This document shows positions 4,383 to 34,347 of a stretch of DNA of 64,000 nt, one piece after another. The stretch is from BD2-11 clade cluster bacterium bin43 (GTDB lineage: Bacteria; Gemmatimonadota; Gemmatimonadetes; Longimicrobiales; Gaopeijiaceae), in the NCBI GenBank assembly GCA_002238605.1, contig MPMR01000009.1:1-64000 (forward strand), read 5' to 3'. Within the stretch, counting starts at the first letter, position 1; every line of letters starts with the position of its first letter. Both the position numbers and the translations under genes were made by a program. The notes under the pieces were generated by a model. It had not been told where the DNA came from, searched no databases, and saw nothing but the letters and a program-made list of their open reading frames with translations.

Positions 4383-7040
4383 ATGCCGCATCGAGCCTTT
4401 CCGTCACTGCCCTTCGCGCTGTCCCGCCCGCTTCGCGCGTGCCTCTGCGTCGCCGTGCTGCTTTCCTGCGGCGACGAGCCGGCGGGGCCGCCGCCGGGGA
4501 TGCCCGCCGCCCTGACGGTGTCCCCCGCCGACCTCACGCTGACCGCCATCGGCCAGACCCTGCAACTGCAGGCGGAGGTCGTCGACCACTACGGCGATCC
4601 GGTGTCCGGCCAGAGGGTGGCCTGGACGAGCGACCGGCCCGGGACGGTCATGGTCGATTTCGGCACCGGGGTGGTCACGGCGATCGCGGCGGGGACGGCC
4701 ACGGTGACCGCCACCTCGAGCACGCTCAGCACACGGGTTCAGGTAACCGTGGCCCAGGAGCCGGGCGCGATCGAGAAGGTGGCCGGCGACCTCCAGGCGG
4801 GGTTCATCGGCGAGGCGCTCCCTCTGGCCGCCGTCGTGCGCGTGACGGATGCCAACGGCCATCCCGCCGGGCTGGTTCAGGTCCGGTTTGCCGTGACTTC
4901 GGGAGGCGGTTCCGTGGCCCCGGCGTCAGCCGTCACCAGCCCCGCCGGCCTCGCCCAGACCACCTGGACGCTGGGCACGGCCGCCCGGCATGCGCTGGCC
5001 GCCACCGCGGGGAGCGTCACCGAGGAGTTCCGGGCTACCGCGGAACGCCTGCCGCTGACCATAGAAACCGACTCGCTCGCCCGGGCGCGGCTCACGCTCC
5101 CGTACCTCACCCGTCTGCGCGCCCGCGGCGGTTCCACTCAGGGCTACGAGTGGAGCCTCGGCGCGGGAAGCAGCCTGCCCCCGGGGCTCCGGTTCGATTC
5201 CCGCGGGACCATCCGCGGCGTTCCCACGGACACGGGCACCGCCGTCGTGCAGGTGCGGCTCGCCGACTCGGAGGGCGGGGGAGCGGTTCGCGAGTTCACG
5301 TTGCGCGCCTGCGACGCTCCGCTGGGACTGGAACTGGGGGAGGTGCGGATTCTGGAAGAGGACGCGATCCGCGGATGCGGCTTCTACGTGCGCGCTCCCG
5401 AGGCGGGCGCGTACTACCGGGTCACGCTGGCGGGAGCCGACGGCGGGAGCACCGCCATCATGCCGGTGGCGCTGCACGCCGAAACCGATACCGCGGGTGA
5501 GGGGGCCGCAGCCGCCACCGCGCCGCGGCCCGTCGTGCACCGGGCCTCCGCCGCGCGAGCGTTCCGCCAGACCATCCCGGCGCGTGAAATGCAGGCGATC
5601 CAGGAAGTCGAGCGCGCCAACGCGGCCCTCCACCAGGAGATTCGGCAGCAGGAAGATGAGCTGTTCTCGCGCCTCGCGATGGAGGGACGGCTGGAGGTTC
5701 TGCCCGACCGCTCCTTCGAGGTACGGGGAGCCATGGCCGCGGATGCGGGGCCGAGTCCGCCGACGCGCATGTTCCGTCTGTACAACCCCACCGCCGAACC
5801 AGGGGAACGCTGCAACGCCTACGCCACCCTGAGCGCCCGCCTGGTCACGGAGAACGACCACATTGCCGTCTACGAAGACGCAGAAGCAGCGACGGGGATA
5901 TCCAGGGCCAACGCCGACCGGATCCTCGCCTTCTACGAGGACTACGGGGCCTCCGTAATCGAGCGCTACTTCGGCGGGACGAGCGACGTGAACGGCGATG
6001 GCCGGGTCGTCGTGGTGGTGGACCCGGCGCTCAACGGCATCAAGGCGTTCGTCTGGGGAGGCGACCATACCCTGCCCCGCGAAACGTGCGCCTCCTCAAA
6101 CGAAATGGAGCTGGTGCGCATGAGCGCCGGCGCGTTCGCGCAACTCGACAGCGAGCGCTACTGGGCCTTCGGCGGGCTCGTCCACGAAGTCAAGCACGTC
6201 AGCTCGCTGTACAAGCGGGTGCGGCATTCTCTGGGCGTAGCGGGCGAGATCTCGCCCGACTTTCATCCGACCTGGATCGAGGAGGGCACGGCCGAGATCG
6301 CCAAGGAAATGAGTTCGCGCCTCGCGTGGCAGGCTGCGGGGGGACCGGCAGTCCACGAACGGGTGACCGGCGAGATGCTGCAGGCGGGGATCAGCGGATC
6401 GTATCCGGAAGTGTACGGGATCGTGAACCTGATCGGCCGCACCGCATCCGCCTTTGCCTGGTTCACCGAACGTCCCAACGCGGTCACGTTCAGACCCAGG
6501 GACCGGGGCAACGTGTACGGGAGCGGCTGGCATTATCATCGCTTCCTGCGCGACTGGTTCGGCACGGCCGGCACGTCGCCCGCAGGGGACGAGGCGTTCG
6601 TTACCGTGCTGAACGACTCGCTCACCGCCCCGGGTCTGTCGGGCATCGAGCGCGTCAGCGGTCTGACCTTCGACGATCTGCTGACCCGGCACGCGGTGGC
6701 CATGTCGGTGGCGGGGGCCGAGGACAGCCTGCTGGAAGGCGTACCGCGCTTCTCGTCCTATGACTTTCCGGAAGTCGGAGAGTTCGCCCCCTCTCTGAAC
6801 GCCCCCGGGCACTACCCGTGGCCAGTGACCCGAACCGGGTCATCCGACGATACGGCGGTCCTCTGGGCGGACCTGGCGGTGAACCGCCCATTCCGCGGCG
6901 AACTGACCGGAAGCGGCGTGCGCTTCCACGACTTCCGCGCGACGGAGAGAGGCGCGAGCACGACATTCCTCGTTGAGCTCGGGGCGGAGGATTTCGAAGT
7001 ACGCGTGATCGTGGCGCGGATCCCGGATCCGGCGCGCTGA
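4383..7040 (+). CDS. Lipoprotein with Ig-like repeats and an HExxH metalloprotease motif
   Basis: An 885-residue cell-surface protein. The N-terminus carries a lipobox (VLLSC, Cys29). Residues about 40-110 form a bacterial Ig-like (BIG2-type) domain with the typical ending TAIAAGTATVTATS; a second Ig-like domain spans about 115-220; a putative-Ig (He_PIG-like) repeat with LPPGLRFDSRGTIRGVP follows. The C-terminal half contains HEVKH at residues 601-605, a zinc-binding HExxH, followed 28 residues later by Glu633 in WIEEGTAE, the layout of gluzincin peptidases such as family M30 (hyicolysin). I infer an anchored adhesin-like zinc protease. The start at 4383 is chosen because it begins the signal peptide; no strong ribosome site precedes it, and the frame is open 43 codons further upstream. 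It follows the integrase in the same direction, so it could have been cargo. Confidence 0.82.
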   Translation: MPHRAFPSLPFALSRPLRACLCVAVLLSCGDEPAGPPPGMPAALTVSPADLTLTAIGQTLQLQAEVVDHYGDPVSGQRVAWTSDRPGTVMVDFGTGVVTAIAAGTATVTATSSTLSTRVQVTVAQEPGAIEKVAGDLQAGFIGEALPLAAVVRVTDANGHPAGLVQVRFAVTSGGGSVAPASAVTSPAGLAQTTWTLGTAARHALAATAGSVTEEFRATAERLPLTIETDSLARARLTLPYLTRLRARGGSTQGYEWSLGAGSSLPPGLRFDSRGTIRGVPTDTGTAVVQVRLADSEGGGAVREFTLRACDAPLGLELGEVRILEEDAIRGCGFYVRAPEAGAYYRVTLAGADGGSTAIMPVALHAETDTAGEGAAAATAPRPVVHRASAARAFRQTIPAREMQAIQEVERANAALHQEIRQQEDELFSRLAMEGRLEVLPDRSFEVRGAMAADAGPSPPTRMFRLYNPTAEPGERCNAYATLSARLVTENDHIAVYEDAEAATGISRANADRILAFYEDYGASVIERYFGGTSDVNGDGRVVVVVDPALNGIKAFVWGGDHTLPRETCASSNEMELVRMSAGAFAQLDSERYWAFGGLVHEVKHVSSLYKRVRHSLGVAGEISPDFHPTWIEEGTAEIAKEMSSRLAWQAAGGPAVHERVTGEMLQAGISGSYPEVYGIVNLIGRTASAFAWFTERPNAVTFRPRDRGNVYGSGWHYHRFLRDWFGTAGTSPAGDEAFVTVLNDSLTAPGLSGIERVSGLTFDDLLTRHAVAMSVAGAEDSLLEGVPRFSSYDFPEVGEFAPSLNAPGHYPWPVTRTGSSDDTAVLWADLAVNRPFRGELTGSGVRFHDFRATERGASTTFLVELGAEDFEVRVIVARIPDPAR

Positions 7041-7089
7041 GGAGCGCCGCCTGAAGGTCCCCGTCCGGAGATCCCCGGCCGACGCGCCC

Positions 7090-8418
7090 CTACCGCCGGC
7101 CCGCCGGCACCATCCGGACGATCCTGGTGGGCGGGCCATCGATGTCGCGGGTGGTGCCGTCGATCGCCAGGTAGATCAGTCCATCGGGGGCCTGGCGAAC
7201 GTCGCGGATGCGGCCGATGTCCTGAAGCAGCGTTTCCTCGCGGGCGACCCGCCGCTCGTCGAGGCGCAGCCGGACCAGGCGCTGGCCGCGCAGTCCTCCA
7301 ACCAGCGCATCCCCGTGCCAACCGGGGAACGCTTCCCCCGTGTAGAAGAGCATCCCCGATATGCCGATCGAGGGAACCCAGACGTGGGCCGGCGCCTGCA
7401 TTTCCTCATGCTGCGTGCCCGCGTGGATTCGGAGGCCGGTTCGGTAGTGGACGCCGTAGCCGACAACGGGCCAGCCGTAGTTGCGGCCGGGCTCGATCAG
7501 GTTGAGCTCGTCTCCGCCCTGCGGGCCGTGCTCGTTCTGCCACAGGTCGCCGGTCCCCGGGTCGGTGGCCATCCCCTGGGCGTTGCGGTGGCCGTAGGTC
7601 CATATCTCCGGCTGCGCGCCCCGCACGTCCACGAACGGGTTGTCGGCGGGGACGCGGCCGTCGTCATGAATCCGGATTGTGGTTCCGTTGTGATTTGAGA
7701 GGTCCTGGGCGGGGTGCGCCGTCAGGTCGCCCACGGAAGGCCACTGCCGATCTCCCAGCGTCATGAAGAGGTACCCGTCGTCATCGAACGCGAGCCGCCC
7801 TCCCCACATCGAACTGCGATCGGTTCCGTTCCCCGGCGCATCCGCGTGAAACAACTCCTCGACCTCCGTCAGCCTGTCGCCGGCGAATCGGCCGCGCGCG
7901 ATCGCGATGTTCCCCAGCGAATCGGGCCCGGGCCGGGTGTAGCTGAGGTAGAGAAGACGGTTCGCGGCGAAGTCCGGATGAAGGACGACATCGCGCAGGC
8001 CGGCCTGCTCGAATCCGTCCATGGATCGCGCCCCGCGTCCAAGGGCCCGTATCTCGGGCAGTCCGTCCACGGAATCGGGCAGCAGTTCTCCGTTTCGGAT
8101 GATGCGGAGTCGGCCCGGACGCTCCGTTACCAGCAGATCGCCCTCCGGCGTGAAGGCCATGGCAAAGGGGCGGACCAGGCCATCGGCGACCTCCTCGACA
8201 CGGAAGTCGTGGAGGGCGGTCTGCACGATGGCTTGGTCGGCGGTGGACGGCGCTTCCGGGGCCGGCGCGCAGGCGGCCAGCACCCCCAGCAGTCCGTAAG
8301 CAAATCCGCGCAAGCACCGAGAGCGGCGAGGCGCGGAGCCGCGAGGAGTTCGTCCACGGGCTGCCGGGAGGATGACGGGCGTGCAAGGGCGAACCCGTCG
8401 GTCGGAATCGTTTCTCAT
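7090..8418 (-). CDS. PQQ-dependent sugar dehydrogenase-like protein
   Basis: A 442-residue member of the soluble glucose/aldose sugar dehydrogenase family (Asd, YliI), six-bladed beta-propellers that bind PQQ and calcium in the periplasm. Family signatures are clear: FAMAFTPEGDLLVTERPGRL near the N-terminus, GLRDVVLHPDFA, GGRLAFDDDGYLFMTLGDR, the Ca/PQQ stretch IWTYGHRNAQGMA, and NEHGPQGGDELNLIEPGRNYGWP. A long basic N-region leads to a hydrophobic segment ending in LAAC (Cys50), so the protein is probably a lipoprotein. The ATG at 8418 has no good ribosome site and lies directly at the edge of a tandem-repeat array, so the true start is uncertain. No PQQ synthesis genes are in the window. 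Confidence 0.88.
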   Translation of the reverse strand: MRNDSDRRVRPCTPVILPAARGRTPRGSAPRRSRCLRGFAYGLLGVLAACAPAPEAPSTADQAIVQTALHDFRVEEVADGLVRPFAMAFTPEGDLLVTERPGRLRIIRNGELLPDSVDGLPEIRALGRGARSMDGFEQAGLRDVVLHPDFAANRLLYLSYTRPGPDSLGNIAIARGRFAGDRLTEVEELFHADAPGNGTDRSSMWGGRLAFDDDGYLFMTLGDRQWPSVGDLTAHPAQDLSNHNGTTIRIHDDGRVPADNPFVDVRGAQPEIWTYGHRNAQGMATDPGTGDLWQNEHGPQGGDELNLIEPGRNYGWPVVGYGVHYRTGLRIHAGTQHEEMQAPAHVWVPSIGISGMLFYTGEAFPGWHGDALVGGLRGQRLVRLRLDERRVAREETLLQDIGRIRDVRQAPDGLIYLAIDGTTRDIDGPPTRIVRMVPAGRR

Positions 8419-8421
8419 GGA

Positions 8422-8571
8422 ATGTACGATTGGTGGAGATGAACGATGGGTGGGATGAACAACGCCGCGCGGGATGAACGATTGGTGGCATGAACGATTG
8501 GTAGGATGAACGACGCGCGTGGGATGAACCATTCGCGGGTGCGACGCGTGGGATGAACGACTCGCGCCGGC
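8422..8571. repeat. Degenerate tandem repeat, about eight units of 16-19 bases
   Basis: Units begin with ATGAAC (first one ATGTAC) at 8422, 8439, 8455, 8474, 8490, 8506, 8524 and 8553. The best-kept form is ATGAACGATTGGTGGC, 16 bases; others have diverged or carry small insertions, and the last gap is 29 bases. The array fills the space between the divergent sugar dehydrogenase and arsC genes. It lacks the regular repeat/spacer pattern of a CRISPR array. The upstream open frame of the dehydrogenase runs through it, which produces a false protein extension. Confidence 0.8.
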
Positions 8572-8654
8572 ATGGGACCCTCGCGAGGTTGTCCGGGCAG
8601 GCGCGTTCAATCCTACTTCCACGATCCCGGCCGGGACAGGAGGAAACGGAGCTG

Positions 8655-9110
8655 ATGGCAGGGTTGGGCGAGAGCTGGCGCTCGGACGCGGACGCGCTGC
8701 GCGACCTGGGATTCCGGCACATCCTCTTCCTGTGCGTGGCCAACTCGGCACGCAGTCAGCTGGCCGAGGGGATCGCCCGCCATCTCGCGCCCGCCGGCGT
8801 CAGGGTCTCTTCCGCGGGCTCTGAGCCGTCGTCGGTGCGCCCGCACGCGGTGGCGGTCCTGGCCGAGGTCGGGATCGACATCTCGGGGCATCACTCCAAG
8901 GGGGTGGACGACGTAGTCCGCCCGGTGGACGCCGTGGTCACGCTGTGCGCGGAGGAGGTGTGCCCGGTCTGGCTCGGGGACGCGCACCGGGTGCACTGGG
9001 GGCTGCCCGACCCGGCCGCGGTTCGGGGACGTCCCGGGGCGCGACTGGACGCTTTTCGGGCGGTGCGGGACGAGCTGCGGCGCCGGCTGGCGGTGGTGTT
9101 CGCGCGGTAG
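8655..9110 (+). CDS. arsC: Arsenate reductase ArsC, thioredoxin-linked (LMW-PTP fold)
   Basis: A 151-residue protein of the low-molecular-weight phosphatase fold. The P-loop is C27-V-A-N-S-A-R33 (Cx5R), followed by SQLAEG. Two further cysteines, Cys98 and Cys103 in VTLCAEEVCPVW, sit where ArsC enzymes of the Staphylococcus pI258 type have the resolving cysteine pair, and LPDPA supplies the acid loop. This favours arsenate reductase, which passes electrons from thioredoxin through a three-cysteine relay, over tyrosine phosphatase. The start at 8655 has AGGAGG about 12 bases upstream; the ORF is open earlier only through the repeat array. No arsR, arsB or acr3 is adjacent, so it stands alone and its role in arsenic resistance is inferred. 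Confidence 0.87.
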   Translation: MAGLGESWRSDADALRDLGFRHILFLCVANSARSQLAEGIARHLAPAGVRVSSAGSEPSSVRPHAVAVLAEVGIDISGHHSKGVDDVVRPVDAVVTLCAEEVCPVWLGDAHRVHWGLPDPAAVRGRPGARLDAFRAVRDELRRRLAVVFAR

Positions 9111-17974: not shown

Positions 17975-18385
17975 CTACGGGCCCGAAGGCGCCGACGGCT
18001 CCTTCGTAGAGATCTGGATGACGCCGTTCTCGGCGCGTTCGCCGAACAAACCGGCTGCCGCCTCTCCCTTGATGACCTCGATACGCTCGATGTCGTCGGG
18101 GTTCAGGGAGTTGAGCGACGCGCTGCCCCCCTCGAGCTCGACGCCGTCGACGAAGATGAGCGGGGCACCGTCTCCGAGGTTGCCCGTGATTCGCACTGCT
18201 TCCGAGACCGGATTGCCGGAGCCGTCTGCGCTGGCCGCCGCTTCGGGGTTCGCAAGCGCGTCGAGAAGCGCATCGTCGATGGCGGTGGGCGCATCGGAAT
18301 CGCAGGCGGTCACCGCCGCCAGGAGGGCCATACCGGCAAGCGTGAGCGCGCGCGGCGGGGTCCATTTCATCTTCGTTGCAGCCAT
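17975..18385 (-). CDS. Small lipoprotein with a TonB-plug-like domain, tandem copy of the M56 protein tail
   Basis: A 136-residue protein that repeats the C-terminal third of the neighbouring M56 protein. Residues 1-28 equal the anchor segment of that protein (MAATKMKW versus MAAKKMKW) and end in VTAC, which fits a lipobox, so the membrane anchor of the parent may serve here as a lipoprotein signal. The rest has the SusC-type plug signature: PLIFVDGVEL, then LNPDDIERIEVIKGEAAAGLFGERAENGVIQI. DNA upstream of the ATG continues to match the parent gene but is frameshifted. It may be a functional small lipoprotein or only the surviving 3' end of a dead copy. The ribosome site is weak. Confidence 0.65.
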   Translation of the reverse strand: MAATKMKWTPPRALTLAGMALLAAVTACDSDAPTAIDDALLDALANPEAAASADGSGNPVSEAVRITGNLGDGAPLIFVDGVELEGGSASLNSLNPDDIERIEVIKGEAAAGLFGERAENGVIQISTKEPSAPSGP

Positions 18386-18475
18386 GACCTCGGTCTCCGT
18401 TGGAGGGAATGTCTGGATTTGATGAGGGCGGGCGTGAACACCCAACGTCGGCGTTGCCTCACAGCGATGACGAGC
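18386..18475 (-). pseudogene. Frameshifted remnant of a duplicated M56 gene
   Basis: Read leftward in another frame this stretch gives RRRWVFTPALIKSRHSLQRR, matching HRRWVLTPALVESRHSLERR of the M56 protein encoded at 18582-19970. At the DNA level it aligns with about 19195-19285, with a one-base loss near 18390 that breaks the frame before the plug-domain copy. The similarity fades beyond about 18475, so the duplication covered only the 3' part of the gene, or the rest has decayed. Confidence 0.75.
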
Positions 18476-18581: not shown

Positions 18582-19970
18582 CTAAGGGGCGAGCGATAGC
18601 TCCTTAGCGGTCAAGATAAAGGCGGGAGCTCCCAACTGGACGAAGTAGGCGATTTCAATCGGCTTGCGGGTGGCGCCGGCGTCGCCAGACGGCGGCACAT
18701 CCTTCGCCGACGGCGCCTCAGGTTCAGTCGCCTCGCGCTCGATCGTAAAGATCTGGATAACGCCGTTCTCGGCGCGTTCGCCGAACAAACCGGCTGCGGC
18801 CTTTCCCTTGATGATCTCGATCCGGTCGATGTCGTCGGGGTTCAGGGAACTCAGTGGCGAGTACAGGACGCCGTCGCTGGTCCTGACCGAGTAGGTGCCG
18901 GCCTCGAGCGAGCCGTCCGAATCCGTCACGTCCACGCCGTCGATGAAGATCAGCGGCCTGAGCCGCTCGGCCTTGAGCTGCCGCTCGACCTCGAGCCGCT
19001 GGGCCAGGGCACGCGGCGTAAGGGAGCCGTCCGCGCTGGCGTCGGCCTCCGGGTTCGCCAGCACGTCGAGGAGCGCATCGTCGATGGCGGTGGGGGCGTT
19101 GGTATCACAGGCGATGACCACGGCCGCCAGGGTCAGACCGGCCAGCGTCACCGCGCGCAGCGGGCTCCACTTCATCTTCTTCGCTGCCATGACCTTCAGT
19201 CTCCGTTCGAGGGAATGTCTGGATTCGACGAGGGCGGGTGTGAGCACCCACCGCCGGTGCTGTCCCACCCCGATGGCGAGCAGCAGCTTGCCGTAGTCGT
19301 CCGCCGGGACTCCGGAGGCGATGACGCGCCGGTCGCAATCGATTTCCACCGCGCCGCGCAGGTTGCGGACCATCCACCAGACCGCCGGGCTCCAGGGGAA
19401 GAGCGTGGCGATCATCGCGCCGTAGAGGAGGGTCAGGTGGTCGTGTGCGCGGGCGTGCTCACGCTCATGCCGGATCGCGACGCTCCCGGCCCGCTCGCTC
19501 GCGCAGAACAGCCATTCGGGGATGACCACGGAGGGTCGTGCCACGCCGATCAGCGCCGGGCCGAAGCCCTCAGAGACGTAGACGTCTTCGCCGTCCACCG
19601 ACCGCCGGGGCCATCGGCGGCGCGAGCGGACCATGAGGCCCAGGATCGCGCCGAAGACGGCAAGCGTGGCCAGGGACGCGGCGCCCCATCCAATCGCCGC
19701 CATGCGGTCGAGCATCTGGCCGGGGACCGACGCAACCGGATTCTGCACGGCTTCGATGACTTGTTCGACGGCGGGCGAGGCGTTCGCGGGAACCTCCGGA
19801 ATCGCCGCCGGCGGCCTCGCGGAGAGCGGGATCACCACAGCCAGCGTGAGCGCGACCAGCCAGGGAAAGCGCCGCGGCCAGCCCATGGTCTCACACAGGC
19901 GCTCGCAGGCCCACCCGCCGGCCGCCAGCAGACCGCCGATCACCGCGGCATATGTCATCCAGATGATCAT
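18582..19970 (-). CDS. BlaR1-type M56 metallopeptidase fused to a TonB-plug domain
   Basis: A 462-residue membrane protein. Residues 1-200 carry hydrophobic helices (about 4-20, 37-50, 92-113, 180-200) and the M56 zinc motif H168-E-R-E-H172 in IRHEREHARAHDHL, with the downstream acidic ligand region VEIDCDRR (209-214). BlaR1/MecR1 proteins of this family cleave or trigger cleavage of the BlaI repressor after an outside signal. In place of the penicillin-binding sensor there is a membrane segment (272-287) and a C-terminal domain (338-409) with the SusC/TonB-plug signature PLIFIDGVDV and SLNPDDIDRIEIIKGKAAAGLFGERAENGVIQI. Its start overlaps the blaI stop by four bases (ATGA). I infer a sensor-protease whose input is not a beta-lactam. 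Confidence 0.88.
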   Translation of the reverse strand: MIIWMTYAAVIGGLLAAGGWACERLCETMGWPRRFPWLVALTLAVVIPLSARPPAAIPEVPANASPAVEQVIEAVQNPVASVPGQMLDRMAAIGWGAASLATLAVFGAILGLMVRSRRRWPRRSVDGEDVYVSEGFGPALIGVARPSVVIPEWLFCASERAGSVAIRHEREHARAHDHLTLLYGAMIATLFPWSPAVWWMVRNLRGAVEIDCDRRVIASGVPADDYGKLLLAIGVGQHRRWVLTPALVESRHSLERRLKVMAAKKMKWSPLRAVTLAGLTLAAVVIACDTNAPTAIDDALLDVLANPEADASADGSLTPRALAQRLEVERQLKAERLRPLIFIDGVDVTDSDGSLEAGTYSVRTSDGVLYSPLSSLNPDDIDRIEIIKGKAAAGLFGERAENGVIQIFTIEREATEPEAPSAKDVPPSGDAGATRKPIEIAYFVQLGAPAFILTAKELSLAP

Positions 19971-20404
19971 CGGTCTTCCTCCTTCTCCTGGGCACGGTCC
20001 AGGATCGAACGCATGCGCGCGATCTCCTCTTCGGTGAATTTCCGGTTCTCGACCAGCGTCGCGAGGAGCAGTTCCGCGGAACCCTGGAAGATCTTGTTCA
20101 TGACGCGCCGCAGGGCGCTGCCGCCGGCGGCAGCGGACTCGACCAGGGGGAAGTAGCGGTGGGCCCGGCCCTCTTTCTCATGGCGAACCGCGTTCTTGCC
20201 CTCCAGGATCTGCAGCATCTTGAGGACGGTGGTATAGCCGACGTCCTCCCCGAGAACGTCCCGGACCTCCGCCACTGTCCCCGAGCCTTCGCGCCAGAGG
20301 ACGCTCATGATGTCCAGTTCGCGGTGCGTGAATCGATTCGGTTCCCGCGCCGCTTCGGCTGACTCGCGCGAGCTTCGGTGCGATTCCTGCGCCTTGTCGT
20401 CCAT
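19967..20404 (-). CDS. blaI: BlaI/MecI-family transcriptional repressor
   Basis: A 145-residue winged-helix repressor. After a polar N-terminal extension of about 23 residues the DNA-binding domain reads FTHRELDIMSVLWREGSGTVAEVRDVL, followed by YTTVLKMLQILEGKNAV, the recognition helix region and hinge where related repressors are cleaved. The C-terminal half (RRVMNKIFQGSAELLLATLVENRKFTEEEIARMRSIL) is the dimerisation part. It overlaps the M56 gene by four bases and is transcribed first, the standard blaI-blaR1 order. Two copies of an inverted repeat bracket its promoter, so autorepression is very likely. Confidence 0.95.
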   Translation of the reverse strand: MDDKAQESHRSSRESAEAAREPNRFTHRELDIMSVLWREGSGTVAEVRDVLGEDVGYTTVLKMLQILEGKNAVRHEKEGRAHRYFPLVESAAAGGSALRRVMNKIFQGSAELLLATLVENRKFTEEEIARMRSILDRAQEKEEDR

Positions 20405-20469: not shown

Positions 20470-20474
20470 GCTTC

Positions 20475-20488
20475 ACGAAGGTCTTCGT
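20475..20488. promoter_or_regulatory. Predicted BlaI operator 1
   Basis: ACGAAGGTCTTCGT is a perfect 6-bp inverted repeat with a 2-base spacer. It lies 7 bases downstream of the predicted blaI -10, over the likely start of transcription, where a bound repressor would block the polymerase. The same motif recurs at 20524-20537 and at 33498-33511. Confidence 0.75.
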
Positions 20489-20495
20489 AGTCGGA

Positions 20496-20524
20496 AGTGT
20501 AGCGAGTGCTTCACCGGATGTCAA
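20496..20524 (-). promoter_or_regulatory. blaI promoter
   Basis: On the minus strand TTGACA (20524-20519), a 17-base spacer and TACACT (20501-20496) form a near-ideal housekeeping promoter, about 90 bases upstream of the blaI start. It is bracketed by the two predicted operators. Confidence 0.8.
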
Positions 20525-20537
20525 CGAGGATCTTCGT
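20524..20537. promoter_or_regulatory. Predicted BlaI operator 2
   Basis: ACGAGGATCTTCGT matches operator 1 with one imperfect position in the dyad. It touches the upstream end of the -35 box. Centre-to-centre distance to operator 1 is 49 bases. Confidence 0.7.
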
Positions 20538-20572
20538 AGATTGGATCGCTACGCATCCCGGACTCCGGCCTG

Positions 20573-32140: not shown

Positions 32141-33436
32141 TCAGCGCATGTGCAGCTCGTACACCTCCACGCGCTCGACGCCGAGATCGTCGGTGGATAC
32201 GACGGTCAGCCTGCCGTCGCCGATGTGCTGGATGCGAAGGCTGGCGGGTGCCACGACCTGGCCCAGGAAGCTGCCGTCGGTGCCGAATACATCGCGGGCA
32301 ACCGCCTCGGCGCCGCGAATCGCGAAGCGCCGCGCCCAGATCTCGCCGCTTTCGGCGATGAGGAGCGAGCTCCAGGCCGGGAGCTGCTCGGGAAGGGGCA
32401 TGTCTTCGTAGCGGCGCAGGGCGGCCGCTGCCTGGGCTTCGTCCATGGGCTCGCGGTCGCCGGTGGAGCCGCGCACCCAGGATTCGAGATGCGTGTCGGT
32501 GCGGGTTGGTGGCTCCTCCGCGAGGCGCACGATGCGCTCGAGGGCTCCAGCGGAATCGTAGAGGGAGAATTCGTAGGACCGGCCCGACGTCACGGCCATG
32601 CGCCCGTCCGGAGAGGCGGTGGCTGCGGGGACGGCCGAGAAGGGCACCCGCATGATCTGGATCGAGATGTTGGTGCCGCTGCCCTGTCCTGAAGTCACGG
32701 AAGCCTGAGCAGGAACCGTCGCGACGGTGTCGATCAGTGCGCCCGCCAGGTCGTGCCGGACCAGGTATTCGGATCGGGTTCCGCCAGGGTCCGAGATCGA
32801 TTCGAGGGCTTCTTCCAGGGTGGAGGCCCCCTCCAGCGACGGGAGGTTCAGGGCTTCCACCCGGCTGAAGAAGGCGCTCGGCCCCGCCATGCGAACCGGT
32901 CGGATGATGGGCCGCTCGCCCGGGCCCTGGAAGGTCGCGGTTGCGAGCAGTTCGCCCTCCGCCGCGAAACGAGTGATGCGGTCGAGCCGCGGGTCCGCCG
33001 CGACGATGGTGCCCTCCGCGGCGGGCCAGGCGCCCGCGAGCGCCCGGAATTCGCCCGGCCCCTCTCCGGGGCCCCCGATGGTCTGGAGGTGCGCGCCGCT
33101 CGCGTCGAAGATGCGGATCTCGCCCATCTGCGCATCGGCGACGATCAGATTGCCTGCGCCATCGACCGCCACCGAGGCGATGCGCCCGAAGAGCACCTCC
33201 GCGGGGCCGTCGATGGCGCCGATGGAAAGGACCGGTTCCGGGGCGATGGTGGCGTAGACGGCGTCGCCCGGCGAGTTGGTGACGATTGCGATGCCCGCCG
33301 AGTCGGCGAACCGGGCCGCGGTGGGGCGGAACTCTCCGCTGTCACCGCAGCCGGCAACGAGCGCCAGCACACCGCATGACCACGCACCGCTCGTATGGAC
33401 GGCCGTCCGGCGCCGGGGCGATCGCTTTCCCGTCAT
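32141..33436 (-). CDS. Six-bladed beta-propeller lipoprotein
   Basis: A 431-residue exported protein. A lipobox (LALVAGC, Cys30) precedes a propeller fold with NHL-like blades: GRIASVAVDGAGNLIVADAQ, IRIFDASGAHLQTIGGPGEGPGEF (the 6-bladed beta-propeller hallmark GxGPGEF), DPRLDRITRFAAEGELL, and a C-terminal DVFGTDGSFLGQV. Such proteins are common in Bacteroidota and Gemmatimonadota; their ligand is unknown. ATG 33436 follows GAGGGAGCACAGGG. The promoter region contains a copy of the predicted BlaI operator over the transcription start, so I infer control by the BlaI/M56 system encoded at 18.6-20.4 kb. Confidence 0.85.
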   Translation of the reverse strand: MTGKRSPRRRTAVHTSGAWSCGVLALVAGCGDSGEFRPTAARFADSAGIAIVTNSPGDAVYATIAPEPVLSIGAIDGPAEVLFGRIASVAVDGAGNLIVADAQMGEIRIFDASGAHLQTIGGPGEGPGEFRALAGAWPAAEGTIVAADPRLDRITRFAAEGELLATATFQGPGERPIIRPVRMAGPSAFFSRVEALNLPSLEGASTLEEALESISDPGGTRSEYLVRHDLAGALIDTVATVPAQASVTSGQGSGTNISIQIMRVPFSAVPAATASPDGRMAVTSGRSYEFSLYDSAGALERIVRLAEEPPTRTDTHLESWVRGSTGDREPMDEAQAAAALRRYEDMPLPEQLPAWSSLLIAESGEIWARRFAIRGAEAVARDVFGTDGSFLGQVVAPASLRIQHIGDGRLTVVSTDDLGVERVEVYELHMR

Positions 33437-33497
33437 CCCTGTGCTCCCTCGCATTTCGGTGACGCCCGGGGGCCATCCCCAAGCGTGCGGCATCACG

Positions 33498-33511
33498 ACG
33501 AAGAACTTCGT
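33498..33511. promoter_or_regulatory. Predicted BlaI operator at the beta-propeller lipoprotein gene
   Basis: ACGAAGAACTTCGT is a perfect 6-bp dyad with a 2-base spacer, matching the two copies at the blaI promoter (shared form ACGARGnnCTTCGTAG). It begins 5 bases downstream of a predicted -10, the same geometry as operator 1 of blaI. Confidence 0.7.
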
Positions 33512-33516
33512 AGATA

Positions 33517-33545: not shown

Positions 33546-33642
33546 CGTGCTCTCACGCGACCCAGGACGGAGCGCACGTCTCCTGGATTGGGTCGGACGC
33601 TGGTTGCGCGGGTGTGCGGTGCTCCCGTACGATCTGGCCACC

Positions 33643-34347
33643 ATGCCAGGGCATAAGCCGACAATCGGGAAACGGAGACAGTCGTGGAGGCAATCGCTCC
33701 TCGGGGGCGCGTGCCTGGTTTTCTGCCTCCTGACCATCCGGGTAGTGGCGCTGCAGGCCTTTACCATAACGTCCGGATCGATGGAACCCACGTTGCTGGC
33801 CGGGGACTTCGTTTGGGTCAACAAGGCTGCTCTGGGCTCGCGAATCCCGTTCACGGATATTCGCGTCCCCGGCTACTCCGAGCCCCGGAGGGGGGAGATC
33901 CTGGTATTCGATCCTCCCCACGACGACACGTTGATGGTCGTCAAGCGGCTCGTGGGAATGCCTGGCGACACGCTGGCGATGAGGGACAAGACCTTGTTCG
34001 TGAACGGGGTAGCCCGGGACGAGCCTTACGTGTTGCGCACCGACCAGCCTGACTTATCCACCGGCGCGATGCTTTGGCAGCGACAGATCGTGATTGGCGG
34101 TCCGAGGGAGGACTACCTGCCGACTCGCGACAACTGGGGTCCGCTCGTGATTCCCGACGGCCGCTACTTCATGCTGGGCGACAATCGGGACAACAGCATC
34201 GATTCCCGCACTTGGGGGCTTCTGGAACGCTGGCGCCTCGAGGGGCGAATCGTCGTCCGGTACTTCTCCTACAACCGGGACTCCTACCGGGCGTTCCCGT
34301 TCATCCGCGAGATACGCTGGGACCGGATCGGAACGCGACCGCGGTAG
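33643..34347 (+). CDS. lepB: Signal peptidase I
   Basis: A 234-residue membrane serine protease that removes signal peptides. One membrane helix (about 21-40) precedes the catalytic Ser46 in FTITSGSMEPTLLAGD. The general base is Lys101 in MVVKRLVGMPGD, and box E reads YFMLGDNRDNSIDSRTWG. All conserved boxes are in order. An ATG at 33643 is chosen because it gives the normal short cytoplasmic leader; the ribosome site is poor and the frame is open to 33547. It is divergent from the BlaI-operator-bearing lipoprotein gene. Confidence 0.93.
   Translation: MPGHKPTIGKRRQSWRQSLLGGACLVFCLLTIRVVALQAFTITSGSMEPTLLAGDFVWVNKAALGSRIPFTDIRVPGYSEPRRGEILVFDPPHDDTLMVVKRLVGMPGDTLAMRDKTLFVNGVARDEPYVLRTDQPDLSTGAMLWQRQIVIGGPREDYLPTRDNWGPLVIPDGRYFMLGDNRDNSIDSRTWGLLERWRLEGRIVVRYFSYNRDSYRAFPFIREIRWDRIGTRPR

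Follow-up and report, generated by a model that had tools for sequence, protein, structure and literature searches.

A BlaR1-like BlaI–M56 operon with a TonB-receptor-type plug domain and a putative nested lipoprotein gene in a Gemmatimonadota genome

The window analyzed here, a stretch of 64,000 nucleotides (positions 1 to 64,000 of contig MPMR01000009.1, assembly GCA_002238605.1) from the Gemmatimonadota bacterium BD2-11 clade bin43, carries on its minus strand a gene pair of the BlaI/M56 type, the switch by which staphylococci sense penicillin. The pair and the domain that sets it apart are as follows:

19967..20404, minus strand: blaI, a BlaI/MecI-type repressor of 145 aa (Pfam Penicillinase_R, 6.6e-28)
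18582..19970, minus strand: M56 protease with a C-terminal plug domain, 462 aa (Pfam M56 1.7e-16, Plug 4.6e-6)
18744..18959, minus strand: plug domain, residues 338-409 of the M56 protein (Pfam Plug, NCBIfam SusC/RagA 1.6e-10, SusC matches in the PDB, fold match)

The initial annotation of this DNA had described a blaI gene overlapping by 4 bases an M56 gene with an HEREH motif, and both the coordinates and the Pfam matches agree with it; the functional unit nevertheless appears larger than the 18582-20404 interval then proposed, as it includes a second plug ORF (18385-17975) and a promoter with operators (20539-20473). The M56 product is a multi-helix membrane protein which, like the BlaR1/MecR1 sensors, contains a gluzincin domain (HExxH...E) with its catalytic residues present, the Peptidase_M56 match covering residues 137-260 (Pfam, 1.7e-16). 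In contrast, no penicillin-binding (transpeptidase-like) domain was matched in it by Pfam, even at an E-value of 10, and the NCBIfam BlaR1 model gave a score of 32 against a cut-off of 400. When a defence function was searched for with PADLOC, the protease and the plug ORF had no match, and BlaI had only weak HTH-type matches (Csa3, CARF). At the BlaI cleavage-site position, the Phe of MecI is a Leu here, a point against the signaling model proposed below. Across the genus, the M56 protein is 73-81% identical. In each member whose locus is intact, blaI precedes the M56 gene, and in each with a complete locus the genes run blaI, M56-plug, plug lipoprotein.

That the tail of the M56 protein bears a SusC-plug signature, as first noticed by eye, is borne out by profile, sequence, and structure comparisons. 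Plug (PF07715) matches residues 338-404 with 27.5 bits, above the Pfam gathering cut-off of 23.9, and the PDB sequence matches of the tail are SusC plugs. For the M56 body, both a profile built from 35 relatives (8exp) and Foldseek (8exq, 2e-4) point to BlaR1; for the tail, Foldseek finds SusC plugs (5fq7, prob 1.00). In the AlphaFold model (mean pLDDT 76.8), the plug part reaches a pLDDT of about 72-89 apart from a floppy insert at residues 351-369, and residues 413-462 are disordered; the C-terminal 50 residues are also poorly conserved. The plug domain of TonB-dependent receptors is recognized here by Pfam, NCBIfam, PDB, and fold comparisons alike, but the 22-strand beta-barrel that should come after it is absent, the ORF stopping 53 residues past the plug in a disordered stretch. 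The stretch before the plug consists of the last helix, a lipobox, and a linker, and no obvious TonB-box region is seen in it because the lipobox occupies that place. The same genome encodes about 20 large receptor-like ORFs with related plugs, with a core identity of up to 64%. Since a TonB-receptor plug stands where BlaR1 has its penicillin-binding domain, an input other than a beta-lactam, as the initial annotation suggested, is likely. Neither a tail unrelated to plugs nor its loss from homologues was found: it is conserved in the genus and recurs in other genera.

The fusion is indeed far from a lone case, as plug-like tails were found in 81 of the 167 M56 tails sampled from the same class of Gemmatimonadota (about half), across several genera, the source organisms being mostly represented by metagenome-assembled genomes. 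Some M56 tails carry a TonB_C domain, or a plug together with TonB_C (L017), and these, along with the plug tails, point the input toward the TonB-receptor system. The plug modules are, however, often degenerate or repeated (at least two in 31 of the 81 plug tails), and other tails of the family have none, which favors a different view of the input, in which the tail is a small beta-alpha-beta module reused for some other envelope ligand and unlinked to TonB or its receptors. Against this view, the tails of the window are still SusC-plug-like and share up to 64% identity with the genome's own receptors; we regard it as a serious contender although we lean away from it, and it is in any case compatible with the nested gene described below.

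Several other arrangements were seen among relatives and paralogs. The same genome holds a paralogous BlaI–M56 pair (L001, 28-2496) whose long tail has "LRGEIASHRGWVATLQGRIASHR"-type repeats and no plug, and whose last helix ends in a lipobox-like LIAC, as well as an M56 paralog (L002, 631-2286) with two TonB C-terminal domains and neither lipobox nor internal start. Tandem runs of three or four M56 genes exist at four loci in related Gemmatimonadota genomes. At another locus (L043, 6949-8916), an intact M56 gene lies beside one that is split over two frames (8533-8916 and 7884-8747) and may be decaying, and a neighboring tail-only ORF (6949-7857) retains two plug modules. Four records whose titles say Gammaproteobacteria group with the present Gemmatimonadota genus.

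Within the M56 gene and directly downstream of it, a further set of features suggests that the plug may also be made on its own:

19200..19204, minus strand: internal Shine-Dalgarno (SD) sequence GGAGA in codons CGG AGA of R256-R257, its GGAG 10 nt before an internal ATG
18582..19190, minus strand: predicted nested ORF of 202 aa opening at the internal ATG (M261), with a lipoprotein signal peptide followed by the plug tail
19107..19118, minus strand: lipobox V-I-A-C288, closing the last membrane helix (A287 and C288 identical in all 35 M56 proteins of an alignment)
17975..18385, minus strand: separate plug lipoprotein, 136 aa, lipobox V-T-A-C28, a tandem copy of the nested ORF (DNA identity, Pfam Plug 3.5e-12, model)
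18395..18398, minus strand: SD sequence GGAG preceding the separate plug lipoprotein ORF (kept ahead of each of the 10 copies)

Most Gemmatimonadota M56 proteins read LERRLxxM directly ahead of the last helix, and the codons chosen for the two arginines are strongly biased: the second is AGA or AGG in 110 of 116 genes, versus 11.5% of the 4151 Arg codons of the same genes, and the first ends in GG in 99 of 105, CGG-AGA being invariant in nine genus members. The choice at both arginines therefore places GGAGR nine nucleotides ahead of the ATG. Overall, [AC]GG-AGR is used at 111/123 RR pairs of this site versus 98/1263 RR pairs elsewhere in the same ORFs, and an SD four-mer stands 4-11 nt before 118 of the 133 site ATGs versus 113 of the 773 other internal ATGs in M56 bodies (15%). 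M56 genes being kin, these counts overstate independence; among RR representatives, one per 50%-identity cluster, the SD holds in 25 of 27 (p about 5e-26), a clustering that lessens the kinship effect and does not remove it. The SD with its ATG co-occurs with the lipobox (108/8/11/11, Fisher 5e-6), and SD, Met, and Cys are absent together from six TonB_C-type paralogs, L002 among them. From these signals, we conclude that the M56 gene most likely harbors a nested in-frame lipoprotein gene, whose internal start is probably used in vivo. Among 8 Proteobacteria M56 genes, the picture with regard to an internal SD is mixed. A plasmid search by tblastn with the M56 body as query gave no match; with BlaI as query, MecR1 and other M56 genes were reached. 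Outside Gemmatimonadota, an internal start may exist in an M56 gene beside blaOXA-29 on a Legionella plasmid (L244, 2881-4803), where AGGAGAATTTCAATG occupies the corresponding position.

The separate plug ORF repeats the last helix and plug of the M56 gene, with 82-86% DNA identity to its 3' end at a spacing of 739-806 nt, and begins with the lipoprotein signal peptide MAATKMKWTPPRALTLAGMALLAAVTAC. Its Pfam Plug match (3.5e-12) is stronger than that of the M56 tail (4.6e-6), and its model forms a beta-alpha-beta-alpha-beta unit (pLDDT 85-95) which superposes on SusC plugs at 1.5-2.1 Å over 54-58 residues, all of its top 24 fold matches in the PDB (24/24) being TonB-dependent receptors. Such ORFs are found in all genus members with complete loci, one or two per locus (two in G004), and start at the same SD and ATG as the nested site of the M56 gene, this ATG being the first of the frame in several of them. 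Their pairwise dN/dS values of 0.28-0.55 indicate purifying selection, and hence that they are maintained as proteins.

In the lipobox region, A287, C288, and P293 show no variation among the 35 aligned M56 proteins, and neither do the catalytic residues. Because this set was partly selected for plug tails, more weight falls on a wider count of 159 Gemmatimonadota M56 tails, 139 of which have an "AC[DE]" lipobox after the last helix (80/81 plug tails and 59/78 others). Nested and separate plug ORFs alike display what is expected of a lipoprotein, namely an SD-preceded start codon, a charged n-region, a hydrophobic stretch, and a lipobox Cys, and the nested product would be cleaved and lipidated at C288. 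In Staphylococcus aureus BlaR1, signal peptidase I (SpsB) cuts at Gly331|Gln332, between the last helix and the sensor (PMC9834060), and in an alignment with MecR1 the lipobox falls within about ten residues of the equivalent position. In place of the lipobox of Gemmatimonadota, the last helix of eight Proteobacterial M56 proteins closes with "AAQV(T/S/A)PP", an "AxAQ"-like motif and possible signal peptidase I site.

Against a nested product, the lipobox could serve only the full-length protein, or stay unprocessed in its multi-span context. If there were a single product, the full-length protein would always be cut at the lipobox after insertion and the SD-like codons would only pause the ribosome before the last helix; the near invariance of the lipobox and the documented shedding of the BlaR1 sensor by signal peptidase at the matching place (PMC9834060) are in keeping with this. 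Pausing, however, leaves unexplained both the ATG at a fixed spacing and the joint loss of SD, Met, and Cys in the TonB_C-type paralogs, and the duplicated copies can start only at that ATG, so that we hold this scenario to be unlikely. About as unlikely in our view is an ordinary BlaR1-like fusion in which the plug is a covalent periplasmic sensor of TonB or a receptor, the internal start and Cys being incidental. The confirmed plug fold, the about 20 SusC-like receptors of the genome, and the tails with TonB_C alone or next to a plug would all suit it, but the codon bias and the lipobox far exceed chance, and the tail has neither a barrel nor an obvious TonB-box region. The initial annotation, which took the plug for an attached sensor, was thus right about a BlaI–M56 pair with a plug, whereas the link does not seem simply covalent, helix and tail also forming what looks like a lipoprotein gene complete in itself, equipped with a ribosome-binding site and a lipobox and followed by separate copies.

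With regard to the regulation of this putative two-product gene, a promoter, three candidate operators, and a possible second target were located in the window:

20496..20524, minus strand: sigma-70-type operon promoter TTGACA-17-TACACT (sequence reading; surrounding block conserved in nine genus members)
20522..20539, no strand: operator 1, palindrome CTACGAAGATCCTCGTTG, overlapping the -35 box (nine-member alignment and pattern search)
20473..20490, no strand: operator 2, CTACGAAGACCTTCGTGA, just past the -10 box (nine-member alignment and pattern search)
33496..33513, no strand: operator 3, ahead of a beta-propeller lipoprotein gene, with 60 nt between it and the ATG (pattern search)
32141..33436, minus strand: 6-bladed beta-propeller lipoprotein, proposed second BlaI target (Pfam PF17170, 2.5e-6)

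Palindromic sites resembling CTACGAAGnnCTTCGTAG occur 3 times in the window versus 0.1 expected (pattern search); sites with three mismatches, about as many as in a reversed-pattern control, were discarded. Operators 1 and 2 are conserved around the promoter in the nine-member alignment, and the BlaR1/MecR1 arrangement of an adjacent BlaI/MecI repressor with operators at a shared promoter is found here too, with operators predicted from sequence. Operator 3 lies 13 kb from the blaI-M56 operon. The propeller gene has orthologs in all 11 genus genomes, preceded by the operator in 9 of the 10 testable members (G002 being without it), and is a better candidate target than lepB (33640-34347), divergent from operator 3, because several relatives have no lepB next to the operator. 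Across the same operators, another propeller gene diverges from blaI in four relatives, a layout recalling the bla divergon. The genome and its genus relatives contain dozens of genes resembling 6-bladed beta-propeller lipoproteins (33-75 matches in the more complete genomes), and a BlaI-type operator was seen before one propeller ortholog group, in addition to the divergent gene beside blaI in the four relatives.

On this basis, we propose that the locus probably encodes a BlaR1-like envelope-response system of the BlaI/M56 type, with a single gene yielding both a plug tethered to a protease and a free plug lipoprotein. This proposal builds on features readable in the DNA, namely the architecture, the operators, the conserved internal start signal, the lipobox, and duplicates under purifying selection. 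Translated in full, the gene would produce a membrane protease whose HExxH site faces the cytosol and whose plug domain lies in the periplasm, while the second start of the same gene (GGAGR-9 nt-ATG) would yield the last helix and plug as a lipoprotein in its own right, processed and lipidated at the "AC[DE]" lipobox; in this genus, the operon continues with further, separate copies of that lipoprotein. Upon meeting of the plug domain with a periplasmic or outer-membrane partner, the protease would cleave BlaI, thereby derepressing its own operon via the two operators around the promoter and, 13 kb away, the propeller lipoprotein gene. Induced at the same time as the protease, the free plug lipoproteins would most likely vie with it for that partner, and so set a threshold or end the response; such a competing decoy is our preferred, if tentative, role for them. 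We infer this partner to be part of the TonB-receptor (SusC-like) machinery. Sensing of TonB, ExbD, or a receptor barrel by the plug, as the initial annotation envisaged, is speculation.

To our knowledge, BlaR1-type signaling is known almost only from beta-lactam resistance, when here the same protease–repressor pair would be wired to another envelope sensor, seemingly freed by genetics (internal start and lipobox) rather than by proteolysis as in BlaR1. An incomplete literature search, preprints excluded, found no article that connects M56/BlaR1 to TonB plugs, and none that connects BlaR1 to internal translation. The new element is the nested start with its lipobox; the plug fusion is frequent in the class and shows up in any domain scan. 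Gene finders that allow one start per gene would overlook the nested lipoprotein in every such genome. More tentatively, and with doubt, BlaR1-like M56 genes may be two-in-one across Gemmatimonadota, an internal ribosome-binding site delivering protease and free sensor lipoprotein at a fixed ratio, with the free sensor of the plug branch mimicking TonB-receptor plugs and reporting on outer-membrane import. Release of the sensor by an internal start and lipobox would in itself suggest that separation of sensor and protease is a basic design principle of the M56 family. It would also help to make sense of the many M56 fusions that still lack an explanation, and open TonB-receptor surveillance in Gemmatimonadota to experimental tests.

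Among known systems, M56 proteins with TonB_C, such as the paralog L002, share with this locus the BlaI–M56 pair and a TonB-system domain as tail, but have no lipobox and no internal start. SusC/RagA TonB-dependent receptors share the sequence and fold of the plug, whereas here no beta-barrel exists and a membrane or lipid anchor precedes the plug. As for BlaR1/MecR1–BlaI/MecI of Staphylococcus (cryo-EM structures 8EXP-8EXT), the differences are a plug domain in place of a penicillin-binding domain, an internal SD-ATG and a lipobox that are both wanting at the corresponding place in MecR1, and proposed targets that are beta-propeller and plug lipoproteins rather than a beta-lactamase or PBP2a. 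What the two have in common is a BlaI-type repressor beside an HExxH M56 membrane protease, the helix order, the predicted topology, and an autoregulated operon with operators at its promoter, and in BlaR1 the sensor is also parted from the membrane portion, there through cleavage by signal peptidase I where the last helix ends.
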